In this document: piece after piece, positions 17,191 through 27,324 of the stretch
How positions within the stretch are numbered: the first letter of the stretch is position 1
Layout of the letters: every line of letters starts with the position of its first letter
Source: Mucilaginibacter conchicola
GTDB taxonomy: Bacteria > Bacteroidota > Bacteroidia > Sphingobacteriales > Sphingobacteriaceae
DNA length: 64,000 bases
Assembly: GCF_003432115.1 (NCBI RefSeq)
Contig: NZ_QWDC01000001.1
Coordinates: 744,001 to 808,000, forward strand
Direction: 5' to 3'
The notes under the pieces: model-generated
The model's database searches: none
Told to the model about the DNA's origin: nothing
The model's input: the letters and a program-made list of their open reading frames with translations, nothing else
Program-made: the position numbers and the translations under genes

Positions 17191-18399
17191 ATGGTTAAAA
17201 AACTACACGAGAAGATCGCCCAGTTCCAGGATGCAAATATGATCAGGGCACAGGGACTGTATCCTTTTTTCAGGCCTATCGAGTCGGGTCAGGATACAGA
17301 AGTAATGATCAATGGTCACCGTGTTTTAATGTTTGGTTCTAATTCGTATTTGGGTTTAACCAATCATCCTAAAATAAAAGAAGCCACTAAAAAAGCTATT
17401 GATAAATACGGCTCCGGCTGTGCAGGTTCACGTTTTTTGAATGGTACGCTCGATATCCATATTGAATTAGAGAACCGCCTTGCCCAATACGTAGGTAAAG
17501 AAGCTGCTGTATTGTTCAGCACTGGTTTCCAGGTTAACCTGGGGGTGTTATCTTGCATCACCGGCAGAAATGATTATTTAATATTAGACGAGTACGACCA
17601 CGCCTCTATTATTGATGGCACACGTTTGTCGTTCTCAAAAACCATCAAATACGGCCACAATGATATGGCCGATCTTGAGCGTAAACTAAGCATCCTGCCA
17701 GAAGAAGCTGTTAAAGTTATCGTGGTTGATGGTATCTTCAGCATGGAAGGTGATATTGTTAAATTACCTGAAATTGTTGAGTTAGCTGATAAATACGGCG
17801 CTAACATTATGGTTGACGATGCGCACAGCTTAGGCGTTATTGGCCACAATGGTGCCGGTACAGCATCGCACTTTGGTTTAACCGATAAGGTTGACCTTAT
17901 TATGAGTACTTTCAGTAAATCATTAGCGTCATTAGGTGGTTTTATAGCTGCTGACAATGACACTATCGACTATATAAAACATCGCGCACGCTCATTAATG
18001 TTCAGCGCGAGCATGACACCAGGTTCTGTTGCCAGCGTTATTGCTGCATTAGATATCATCGAAAGCGAACCTGAGCGTATCCAAAAGCTTTGGGATAATA
18101 CTAATTACGCCATGAAGCTTTTAACCGAAGAAGGTTTTGATATCGGTGCTACCGAAAGCCCTATCCTGCCTATCTATATCCGCGATAATGCAAAAACCTT
18201 CCAGGTTACCAATTATCTGCAAAAAGCAGGTGTGTTTGTTAACCCGGTAGTATCGCCGGCCGTTCCGTCAGATTCATCGTTGTTGCGTTTCTCATTAATG
18301 GCAACACACACCTTTGAGCAGATAGACGAAGCCGTTGGAAAACTGGTAGAGGCATTTAAAGCCGTTGGTGTAACTGCAATGAAAGAGAAAATCCAATAA
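17191..18399 (+). CDS. spt: Serine palmitoyltransferase, bacterial sphingolipid type
   Basis: PLP enzyme of the alpha-oxoamine synthase family that condenses serine with palmitoyl-CoA (or an iso-branched acyl-CoA) to 3-ketodihydrosphingosine, the first step of sphingolipid synthesis. The 402 residues closely follow the well-studied Sphingobacterium enzyme along their length: GLYPFFRPIESGQDTEV, LMFGSNSYLGLTNHP, GSGCAGSRFLNGTLDIH, His137 stacking on PLP (DEYDHAS), DDAHSLGVIG with Asp210 and His212, PLP-Lys243 in STFSKSLASLGG, and NPVVSPAVP. It is soluble and cytoplasmic in this form. It heads the gene group for inositol sphingolipids. Confidence 0.93.
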   Translation: MVKKLHEKIAQFQDANMIRAQGLYPFFRPIESGQDTEVMINGHRVLMFGSNSYLGLTNHPKIKEATKKAIDKYGSGCAGSRFLNGTLDIHIELENRLAQYVGKEAAVLFSTGFQVNLGVLSCITGRNDYLILDEYDHASIIDGTRLSFSKTIKYGHNDMADLERKLSILPEEAVKVIVVDGIFSMEGDIVKLPEIVELADKYGANIMVDDAHSLGVIGHNGAGTASHFGLTDKVDLIMSTFSKSLASLGGFIAADNDTIDYIKHRARSLMFSASMTPGSVASVIAALDIIESEPERIQKLWDNTNYAMKLLTEEGFDIGATESPILPIYIRDNAKTFQVTNYLQKAGVFVNPVVSPAVPSDSSLLRFSLMATHTFEQIDEAVGKLVEAFKAVGVTAMKEKIQ

Positions 18400-18421
18400 G
18401 AACATAAATTATTATACGGAG

Positions 18422-18443
18422 CGCCAGTTTTTTTAAACTGGCG
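18422..18443 (+). terminator. Hairpin between spt and the GNAT gene
   Basis: Perfect 9-bp arms CGCCAGTTT and AAACTGGCG around a TTTT loop, 23 bases after the spt stop. There is only a weak T run after it, so it may be a poor terminator, an mRNA-end stabiliser, or an attenuator that lowers expression of the next gene. Confidence 0.5.
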
Positions 18444-18479
18444 TTGCTGTTTAACCCCTTACCCACCCACAACCCACAA

Positions 18480-25156: not shown

Positions 25157-25758
25157 TCAAAAACTTACTAAAGCTTTTTCTTTCTTTCACAATCTTATTC
25201 GCCGGTTTTAGGGCCGGAGCCAACGGTATTGCTCTACGCGACACGCTAATGGCCGATACTATCCCGGAACGTGTTGCTGCAGATGGCAGGGCATTCCCTA
25301 CGCCGCCGGATAACCCCTATCGCCTTTTTTATCTGCAACGAACACCCAACATCAACGCACTTTGCTATGATGTAAATATTGATAAAAAAACCGGACTGCC
25401 AGACGAAGACTCGCCCGTACACGTTTATTGGTTACAATATGCCAAACATAACGGCGAACCCGAGGAGCTAAATTTTATACAACGTAGATTTGCGTACGGC
25501 TATTCGTCTACTGCATTGGGGAATGGCAAGTATGATATCAGATTGGTGTCATACAAAAAAATTCCGTTTACTTTGATGAAGGGTGCCGACGGAAAATATC
25601 ATATCTTCGCAGTTGTTTCTAAAAAAACGATACAGCTGAAAAGTATTTTTATTCAGATCAATGGTGGGTCTATGTGGTCGCCAAATGTTATTTTTGTAGA
25701 AATGAAGGGTACTGATCCTGCAAGTGGCAAAGAGGTGACCGAACGTTTTAAACCCTGA
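25153..25758 (+). CDS. DUF4833-like secreted protein
   Basis: A 201-residue protein with a signal peptide (hydrophobic run LFLSFTILFAGFRAGANG). The mature part has the blocks NPYRLFYLQRTPNINALCYDV and VHVYWLQYAKHNGE that I associate with DUF4833, a Bacteroidota family without known function; this is from memory. No phosphatase, transferase or hydrolase motif was found. It sits between the CDP-alcohol transferase and the fatty-acid hydroxylase with overlaps of four bases before and a gap of five after, so it is tightly tied to the lipid operon and is a candidate for a missing step. Confidence 0.75.
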   Translation: MIKNLLKLFLSFTILFAGFRAGANGIALRDTLMADTIPERVAADGRAFPTPPDNPYRLFYLQRTPNINALCYDVNIDKKTGLPDEDSPVHVYWLQYAKHNGEPEELNFIQRRFAYGYSSTALGNGKYDIRLVSYKKIPFTLMKGADGKYHIFAVVSKKTIQLKSIFIQINGGSMWSPNVIFVEMKGTDPASGKEVTERFKP

Positions 25759-25763
25759 TTATT

Positions 25764-26393
25764 ATGGCTAAGAAAAATTTTGTTTCCAACTCAACCGAGT
25801 CGGTAAGGATGTTTAAAAGCAACTTCCTGGAGAGCTTGTCAAAAGTGCACTACTTTGTGCCGCTTATCATATTTGTACCGGTTATTCTGGCTTGCAGCTA
25901 TTTTGCTTATGATAGAAACATCGGCATACTCAACTATATCTGGTTGTTTTTGGCCGGACTGTTTGTTTGGACGCTTACCGAATATATTATGCACCGCTTT
26001 GTGTTCCACTTTGTGCCAAAAGCAAAATGGGCTTTGCGCCTGCACTTCATTTTCCACGGCGTGCACCATGATTACCCAAGCGATGCCATGCGTTTGGTAA
26101 TGCCGCCATCAGCAAGCATTCCGCTGGCTACAGGCTTTTATTTCCTGTTTAATGCCATGTTGCCTGCCAACTATATTTTTGGCTTTTTCCCGGGCTTTAT
26201 TTTAGGTTACCTGGTTTATGACATATCGCACTACGCTATACACCACTTTAACTTTAAAGGCGCTTTCTGGAAAAAGATCAAACAACACCACATGCTGCAC
26301 CACTACCAGGACCCTACCAAAGGTTATGGTGTAAGCTCACCACTGTGGGATAAAGTTTTCAGTTCAGATTTCATTAAAAAGCAGGATGACTAA
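25764..26393 (+). CDS. Fatty-acid 2-hydroxylase-like di-iron membrane protein (FA2H/Scs7 type)
   Basis: A 209-residue membrane protein of the sterol desaturase/fatty-acid hydroxylase superfamily. The histidine clusters are all present: HRFVFH (77-82), HFIFHGVHH (94-102), HYAIHH (156-161) and HHMLHH (175-180). Spacing and the last block (YQDPTKGYGVSSPLWDKVF) follow fungal Scs7 and animal FA2H, which 2-hydroxylate the acyl chain of ceramides. It lacks the cytochrome b5 domain of those eukaryotic proteins. Given the operon, it probably makes the 2-hydroxy iso-fatty acids known in Sphingobacteriaceae sphingolipids. It overlaps the next gene by eight bases. Confidence 0.87.
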   Translation: MAKKNFVSNSTESVRMFKSNFLESLSKVHYFVPLIIFVPVILACSYFAYDRNIGILNYIWLFLAGLFVWTLTEYIMHRFVFHFVPKAKWALRLHFIFHGVHHDYPSDAMRLVMPPSASIPLATGFYFLFNAMLPANYIFGFFPGFILGYLVYDISHYAIHHFNFKGAFWKKIKQHHMLHHYQDPTKGYGVSSPLWDKVFSSDFIKKQDD

Positions 26394-27324
26394 TGTTTCG
26401 GGCAATGAGGTCCGTATCAACGCTAAAAGTGTAAGCATTGTTACGGGTTTATCTCTTGCGTACCTGGTTCTGTCGTATTTTATGGTTGGCTTTAAAACCG
26501 ACCAATTGGTTCTGTTAGGCATTTTTAACGTTCTGTTTTATGCCTCTGTTATAACGCGCAAATTTATTTTAGGCTTTACCATTTTTATTGTCTACTGGAT
26601 AATATTTGATTACATGAAAGCCTTTCCCAACTACAACTACAATGATGTAGCTATTGGCAGCTTATATGGCGCCGAGAAGAGCATCTTTGGAATAAACGTA
26701 AACGGCACCATCCTTACCCCTAACGAGTACCTGCGCCTGCGAAGCACCGATATTGTAGATGCCATTACAGGTTTCTTTTACCTTTGCTGGATCCCCGTTC
26801 CGCTGGGTTTTGCTGCATACCTTTTCTTTAAAAACAAACGCCAGTTTTTATATTTCTCATTAACTTTTGTACTGGTTAACCTGCTTGGCTTTGTTGTTTA
26901 TTATACTTACCCTGCCGCACCACCCTGGTATGTTCAGTTTCATGGCTTTAACTTCCACCCGCTAACACAGGGCAATACCGCTGGTTTGGCAAGGTTTGAT
27001 AAATTGTTCAATATTACCTTGTTCAAGTCCATCTACGAGAAAGGTTCAAACGTATTTGCAGCAATGCCATCGTTACACTCATCTTATCCTGTAATCGTAT
27101 TATATTACGGTATCAAGAATCGTTTGGGTTTGATAAATATCTTCTTTGGCCTGGTAACTGTTGGTATATGGTTTACGGCAGTTTATGCCAGCCACCACTA
27201 TGTGCTTGACGTTTTGGCAGGCATACTTACCGCAACATTGGGTATTGCACTCTTCAATTGGTTACTGCGTACCTCAAAAAAACTACAAAACTTCCTTTCG
27301 GGTTACGAGGCTGTTATTAGATAA
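26386..27324 (+). CDS. PAP2-superfamily protein resembling inositol phosphorylceramide synthase (Aur1)
   Basis: A 312-residue integral membrane protein with at least six helices. It carries the Aur1/PAP2 catalytic blocks: YTYPAAPPWY (174-183), AMPSLHSSYP (226-235, His231) and ASHHYVLDVLAG (268-279, His271 and Asp275). Fungal Aur1 has the same PSLHS and HHY..D arrangement and a similar APPWY-like block, and it moves phosphoinositol from phosphatidylinositol to ceramide. The plain phosphatase motif of the PAP2 family (KxxxxxxRP) is not seen. It is the last gene of the lipid operon. Inositol phosphorylceramide synthase is the best reading; a lipid phosphatase is the alternative. Confidence 0.82.
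   Translation: MTNVSGNEVRINAKSVSIVTGLSLAYLVLSYFMVGFKTDQLVLLGIFNVLFYASVITRKFILGFTIFIVYWIIFDYMKAFPNYNYNDVAIGSLYGAEKSIFGINVNGTILTPNEYLRLRSTDIVDAITGFFYLCWIPVPLGFAAYLFFKNKRQFLYFSLTFVLVNLLGFVVYYTYPAAPPWYVQFHGFNFHPLTQGNTAGLARFDKLFNITLFKSIYEKGSNVFAAMPSLHSSYPVIVLYYGIKNRLGLINIFFGLVTVGIWFTAVYASHHYVLDVLAGILTATLGIALFNWLLRTSKKLQNFLSGYEAVIR

Follow-up and report, generated by a model that had tools for sequence, protein, structure and literature searches.

Homology and gene order in Mucilaginibacter conchicola point to an enlarged cluster for 2-hydroxylated inositol phosphoceramide

The DNA analysed here (the window) is a stretch of 64,000 nucleotides from Mucilaginibacter conchicola, a member of the Sphingobacteriaceae (contig NZ_QWDC01000001.1 of assembly GCF_003432115.1, positions 744,001 to 808,000), and on its forward strand, at 17191..27324, it carries a cluster of nine consecutive open frames, all intact, in which genes for ceramide formation adjoin genes for inositol lipid synthesis (Table 1). 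Judged from homology and gene order, it is highly probable that this cluster is an enlarged and co-conserved form of one known from Bacteroides, with 2-hydroxylated inositol phosphoceramide (IPC) as its predicted product and with two of the necessary steps likely performed by genes outside it. The original prediction had named nine genes and their families; Pfam and NCBIfam matches, together with an order that recurs in relatives, bear these out, and because the same order recurs the gene set is not a chance association. The families, motifs, gene order, co-occurrence, fusions and absences from the cluster given below are observations.

Table 1. Features of the cluster, with positions in the window
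Feature	Position	Strand	Family evidence
Serine palmitoyltransferase (SPT; to 3-ketosphinganine)	17191..18399	+	NCBIfam NF047600 equivalog, 752 bits (cut-off 640)
GNAT-family acyltransferase (GNAT), predicted ceramide synthase	18480..19598	+	PF00583, 28.3 bits (cut-off 20.7)
Gap, usual site of CerR in relatives	19599..19859	+	
Myo-inositol-3-phosphate synthase (MIPS)	19860..21188	+	PF07994, PF01658
Gap, site of PgpA-type phosphatidylinositol phosphate (PIP) phosphatase in relatives	21189..21461	+	
GtrA-family membrane protein, possible phosphatidylinositol (PI) flippase by inference	21462..21836	+	PF04138
CarbopepD_reg and DUF5686 protein, likely outer-membrane barrel	21851..24400	+	PF13715, PF18939
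Phosphatidylinositol-phosphate synthase (PIPS), BT_1523 type	24443..25156	+	NF052561, 400 bits (cut-off 350)
DUF4833 protein, likely secreted all-beta domain	25153..25758	+	PF16117
FA2H/Scs7-type hydroxylase (FA2H), predicted 2-hydroxylase of the amide-linked acyl chain	25764..26393	+	PF04116, 69 bits (cut-off 31)
AUR1-like PAP2 protein, predicted inositol phosphoceramide synthase (IPCS)	26386..27324	+	PAP2_3, PF14378

From GtrA to IPCS the frames are separated by 14, 42, -4, 5 and -8 bases, so that PIPS and DUF4833, and likewise FA2H and IPCS, overlap by a few bases; SPT and GNAT are 80 bases apart, and MIPS is flanked by 261 and 273 bases. The most likely start of GNAT is the ATG at 18480, which gives a protein of 372 residues and matches the usual length of its homologues, the best of which (95% identity) comes from an unclassified Mucilaginibacter; the best homologue of the DUF4833 protein (85%) is from M. 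achroorhodeus. No match to a Bacteroidetes-type promoter consensus occurs in the cluster, and the total for the window is no more than expected by chance.

An enlarged form of the Bacteroides cluster

Knockouts have proven the role of BT_1522-1526 of B. thetaiotaomicron in inositol lipid synthesis (PMC9246714, PMC8791184). A search with BT_1526 retained the best 80 of 102 relatives, among which B. thetaiotaomicron itself did not figure; 49 had full flanks, and B. faecis (locus L086), with a MIPS 100% identical to the query, was taken as the stand-in reference. MIPS, PgpA, GtrA, PIPS and IPCS are present in 38 of the 49 full-flank loci from Bacteroides and its kin, always in this order and on one strand, and DUF5686 in 25; no full-flank locus yielded SPT, GNAT, CerR, DUF4833 or FA2H. 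Common to the window and BT_1522-1526 are MIPS, GtrA, PIPS and the predicted AUR1-like synthase, in the same order, besides a PgpA-type phosphatase in the genome, which in M. conchicola lies off-cluster; the window differs in adding SPT, GNAT, DUF4833 and FA2H, and in having DUF5686 between GtrA and PIPS where L086 has it before MIPS. Identity to the L086 counterparts is 60% over 402 residues for MIPS, 52% for PIPS, 41% for IPCS (counterpart of BT_1522), 34% for GtrA and 33% over the full length for DUF5686. Since the core is shared and the additional genes occur in none of the 49 loci, we regard the window cluster as the known Bacteroides cluster joined by ceramide and hydroxylation genes. 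Inositol lipid synthesis of the gut Bacteroides is thereby extended, as a prediction, to Mucilaginibacter and its family relatives.

We took BT_1523-type PIPS as the signature gene of the block and counted genomes with it at the equivalog cut-off: it is present in 47 of 151 family genomes including that of M. conchicola (4 of 20 genera), and in five of 218 genomes sampled across the phylum. Stretches of 13-19 kb round PIPS were examined in the 46 other family genomes, with profiles built from the same loci. Besides PIPS itself (47), the 47 stretches contain SPT, DUF5686 and IPCS (46 each), GNAT and MIPS (45 each), FA2H (43), DUF4833 (41), CerR (36), GtrA (31) and PgpA (23); L046 ends at a contig edge after DUF4833, and L082 has SPT, GNAT and CerR on a separate contig. 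The fullest form reads SPT-GNAT-CerR-MIPS-PgpA-GtrA-DUF5686-PIPS-DUF4833-FA2H-IPCS, with all eleven genes in 13 of the 47 loci. Co-conservation in related genomes, which the original prediction had set as a check, held, the block recurring in 47 loci of the family. From other families, L034 has all eleven genes in the same order and L036 no more than MIPS, PgpA, GtrA, PIPS and IPCS, as in Bacteroides. In L074 (genome G289) no GtrA was found between MIPS and DUF5686, where about 2.1 kb with three opposite-strand frames, perhaps an insertion, stand instead. No description of this gene arrangement was found among the matches listed in searches of the open-licence literature, which also returned no paper on inositol sphingolipids in Sphingobacteriaceae.

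The predicted route and its alternatives

Each reaction assigned to this organism is inferred from homology, gene order and co-occurrence. SPT would form 3-ketosphinganine, to which GNAT would likely attach an amide-linked acyl chain; the keto group would be reduced by an enzyme other than CerR, because the CerR of relatives is absent here. MIPS would supply inositol phosphate, from which PIPS, using CDP-diacylglycerol, would make PIP; an off-cluster PgpA, 118 kb away, would dephosphorylate this to PI, and GtrA may carry PI across the membrane. 2-Hydroxylation of the acyl chain would fall to the FA2H-like enzyme, and ceramide would receive phosphoinositol from PI through the AUR1-like enzyme, which would likely act on the outer face. 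DUF4833 would likely work next to PIPS on the outer side of the inner membrane, and a role for DUF5686 in the outer membrane is possible. As ceramide, inositol and hydroxylation genes share one locus, most of the route is open to deletion tests there.

The closest solved structures to the SPT are themselves serine palmitoyltransferases (8guh and 3a2b, E 3e-184), and SPTs of Bacteroidota are reported to take acyl-CoA (PMC11324152). SPT above the cut-off is present in 86 of the 151 family genomes. The GNAT orthologue, delimited by a gap in E-values (1.2e-133 as against 7.4e-53 for the next match), occurs in the same 86 genomes and is a same-strand neighbour of SPT in 85 of them. These identical genome sets and the adjacency support GNAT as the ceramide synthase, and it is likely that the protein N-acylates the sphingoid base, a step to which the original prediction had assigned no gene. 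GNAT might instead modify some other part of the lipid, with a distant enzyme acylating the base; its Pfam score is modest, no NCBIfam name applies to it, and many genomes that lack SPT have a homologue at roughly 30% identity. We consider this unlikely given the exact match of the two gene sets and their adjacency, and ceramide synthases are known besides from Caulobacter (CCNA_01212) and, as a reference gene, from B. fragilis (BF9343_4218), both likened to GNAT by type. Nine genomes of Bacteroides and Parabacteroides each have a top match with 30-32% identity to GNAT. In a tree the Bacteroides protein nests within the SPT-linked clade, but its branch is long and was flagged by the program as possibly false, and we rejected it as an orthologue. 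Neither CerR nor SPT was found near this Bacteroides-type GNAT, in 79 kb of B. xylanisolvens or 20 kb of Parabacteroides distasonis.

Caulobacter has a known ceramide synthase and a known ceramide reductase (PMC11087976, PMC11324152), and genes of B. fragilis serve as references for both functions (PMC10865984). The three-gene core spt-bcerS-cerR of Caulobacter also stands side by side in many relatives of the window; the window differs in its lack of CerR, and its GNAT is likened to CCNA_01212 by type. A Black Sea study, citing its ref. 38, states that the three ceramide genes lie apart in sphingolipid-producing Bacteroidota (PMC11334938); in this family, unlike that statement, they are close together. 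CerR occurs in 70 of the 151 genomes, all of them among the 86 with SPT (leaving 16 SPT genomes without it), and lies beside GNAT in 69.

In the inositol branch, PIPS aligns to the solved synthases 6wm5 and 6h53, and the CDP-alcohol transferase signature, which the original prediction had called intact, is complete by eye in the form DX2DGX2AR..GX3DX3D quoted in PMC9246714. GtrA is the counterpart of BT_1524, the loss of which is reported to lower IPC and raise PI (PMC8791184) and, elsewhere, to have no effect by thin-layer chromatography (PMC9246714). IPCS aligns to solved AUR1 (9vj3, E 8e-15) and keeps the PSLHS and HHY..D motifs of AUR1, which presumably include the catalytic residues.

The cluster might nonetheless make an inositol-bearing or other phospho-headgroup lipid, its route stopping at PI or leading to another headgroup; the AUR1-like protein would then be a phosphatase or the transferase of that other headgroup. 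The IPCS scores 316 bits against NF052609, the equivalog for IPC synthase, below its cut-off of 480, and in two relatives without PIPS, L188 (2513-7052) and L190 (3254-7688), SPT-GNAT-CerR is followed by another CDP-alcohol-transferase-like gene (24.6 bits against a cut-off of 22 in L188, by eye in L190) and by GtrA. On the other side, AUR1 is the sole solved relative at E 0.01 and its motifs are kept, the IPCS gene is present in all 46 loci that are readable there, and SPT, GNAT and FA2H would be out of place in a plain PI cluster; we therefore regard an end product other than IPC as distinctly unlikely in M. conchicola. The arrangement in L188 and L190 suggests that headgroup modules are exchanged on one ceramide core, these two loci perhaps providing another headgroup. 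A further locus, L196 (6863-14648), has SPT-GNAT-DUF5686-FA2H-CDP-alcohol transferase-GtrA-DUF4833, with no CerR, MIPS or BT_1523-type PIPS in 18 kb.

A putative alternative cluster in B. vulgatus and Prevotella comprises an NTP transferase, a CDP-alcohol transferase and a HAD hydrolase (PMC9246714). IPC is the likely product of both systems; the nine genes of the window include neither an NTP transferase nor a HAD protein. Locus L197 (3601-17605), from a family genome, is a B. vulgatus-like alternative set joined to ceramide genes: SPT-GNAT-CerR-MIPS-DUF5686 is accompanied by genes for an NTP transferase, a CDP-alcohol transferase, an LPG_synthase and a HAD protein, followed by DUF4833 and FA2H.

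For the hydroxylase, yeast Scs7 is the best solved relative (E 1.4e-36); the alignment covers 181 residues, 75 of them identical, and 12 of 14 aligned histidines are common to both. The core domains and histidine motifs are shared with the yeast proteins Scs7 and AUR1, and the bacterial proteins are shorter: the 209-residue FA2H-like protein consists of the FA_hydroxylase domain only and is without the cytochrome b5 domain that Scs7 carries. Human FA2H has the same core domain and histidine motifs. FA2H was not found in L077, L078 or L079, and L046 is not readable at that point. Sphingolipids occur in the genus Pedobacter, of which P. saltans is reported to have 8.9% iso-C15:0 2-OH (PMC3236043); by analogy, this 2-hydroxy acid is consistent with the product predicted for FA2H.

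PgpA and CerR absent from the cluster

The original prediction placed the full pathway in the cluster. The identification as an IPC cluster stood, while completeness did not: the window copy is without PgpA and CerR, so that the full pathway in one cluster is true of some relatives and not of the window. PgpA is absent between MIPS and GtrA, and the sole copy in the genome (G000:C1:889636-890055, minus strand; the window corresponds to C1:744001-808000) lies about 118 kb beyond IPCS, adjoining TerC-like and TerD-like frames named by eye. It matches PF04608 at 127 bits and the profile of in-cluster PgpA at 200.6 bits. A single PF04608 match is present in every one of the 47 PIPS genomes, within the cluster in 23 of them and elsewhere in 24, and none was found at E 0.001 in the 104 PIPS-free family genomes. 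Hence the PIPS and PgpA sets are the same 47 of 151 genomes, which supports PgpA as the PIP phosphatase. BT_1525, the PgpA-family protein of B. thetaiotaomicron, is the likely PIP phosphatase there, its knockout reportedly accumulating PIP (PMC9246714); another group did not obtain the deletion (PMC8791184). The exact correspondence of PIPS with PgpA, and of SPT with GNAT, lends independent support to two enzyme assignments.

The CerR label rests on position and family: the GNAT-MIPS site of relatives holds a 328-residue protein of the NAD-dependent epimerase family, which is present in 37 of the 47 PIPS genomes and lies in the cluster in 36 of the 47 loci. A tree of joined SPT, PIPS, IPCS and MIPS sequences, built by a quick method with SH-aLRT support only, covered 45 of 48 loci (L046, L072 and L082 were left out, each with at least one gene missing). 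It places the window in a clade of eight, all without CerR (support 99), and shows separate CerR losses in L044 and L080. In the GNAT-MIPS gap of L035, from the same clade, a CerR-like stretch of 25 residues at 60% identity (tblastn E 1.5e-6, gaps alone) is apparently, by its sequence, what remains of a lost gene; the corresponding gap of the window yielded no significant match (best tblastn E 0.34). CerR has most likely been lost or replaced in the genome of M. conchicola, and if the pathway still runs in this CerR-less lineage its ceramide reductase must have been replaced.

These absences might mean that the pathway is decaying, CerR having gone and PgpA standing off-cluster, and that IPC is no longer made. 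Besides the missing CerR of the window, this would fit the remnant in L035 and the separate absences in L044 and L080. Against it, all nine genes have open frames, the clade of eight without CerR retains SPT, GNAT, MIPS, PIPS, DUF4833, FA2H and IPCS in every member, and the 47 genomes each retain one PgpA. We regard decay as very improbable, a replaced reductase being the simpler reading. A different 3-ketosphinganine reductase of the SDR family, BT_0972, has been described (PMC9278070).

Several results, besides the low IPCS score, weigh against an IPC product in M. conchicola. No reductase was found: a search for CerR, with all 29 candidates scored, gave nothing from this genome at E 1e-25, and an SDR found beside SPT in L210, tried as a stand-in, was rejected, since at E 1e-50, where 17 of 57 candidates were scored, it had no own-genome match; this SDR type has matches in 32 of the 151 genomes, including only two of the 16 SPT genomes without CerR. 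GtrA was not found by profile search in 16 of the 47 loci. In Sphingobacterium, according to Heaver et al., homologues of either of the two known clusters are absent or rare, save for moderate homology to the alternative cluster. The co-occurrence counts ignore kinship, although genus g3 has genomes with and without each set. DUF4833 occurs in 38 of the 104 PIPS-free genomes, which rules it out as specific to inositol lipids, as against 41 of the 47 with PIPS (Fisher p 3e-9, kinship ignored), and a hydrophobicity scan of the window's own DUF4833 protein found no segment over threshold.

DUF4833 and neighbouring genes

In 19 of the 47 loci DUF4833 forms a C-terminal fusion with PIPS; in 22 it is a separate frame, and from six it is absent. 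Gene fusion thus links it, as a partner, to the PIP synthase. No paper on it was found in the open-licence literature search. In the six fusions inspected a hydrophobic segment lies at the PIPS-DUF4833 junction, and residues 1-25 of the window protein are signal-peptide-like by eye and largely helical in a model (pLDDT 87.7) that has an N-terminal helix followed mostly by strands, with no good match among solved folds. The junction segment and the signal-like N-terminus suggest a position for DUF4833 beyond the inner membrane. The protein was ruled out as a substitute for the PIP phosphatase, since all 47 PIPS genomes keep one PgpA, including the six without DUF4833. It might be an extra-cytoplasmic lipid-handling part, fused to PIPS or to hydroxylases according to lineage, that presents GtrA-flipped PI to the hydroxylase and the AUR1-like synthase in an assembly line at the outer face of the inner membrane; we hold this to be doubtful, and a role in lipid hand-over is a guess.

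In L192 (2753-4246) an FA_hydroxylase-family domain is fused to DUF4833, both domains being confirmed, and frames of about 500 residues like it occur in L193, L194, L195 and L211, with two more matches recognised by length only. Fusions of this type adjoin frames that by eye are sigma-factor-like, anti-sigma-factor-like and further secreted-protein-like. Elsewhere, in L202 (1134-4845) and L205 (3017-6844), an SDR, a PhyH-like oxygenase (by Pfam in L202 only), a CDP-alcohol-transferase-like frame, GtrA and DUF4833 stand together; the transferase-like frame scores 20.8 bits in L202, just below the Pfam cut-off of 22, and was recognised by eye in L205. No SPT was found in either genome at E 1e-150, and the group is possibly a headgroup module for a non-sphingolipid.

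Upstream of the cluster, at 11013-16842 on the minus strand, the window carries a divergent trio that resembles an RND efflux pump by eye (a 1060-residue pump, a 383-residue adaptor and a 459-residue outer-membrane factor), and similar RND-like frames also adjoin the cluster in L035. Downstream, at 27507-28925 on the plus strand, lie a TPR protein and a CAP-like protein, named by eye, the TPR protein being present in 26 of the 47 loci.

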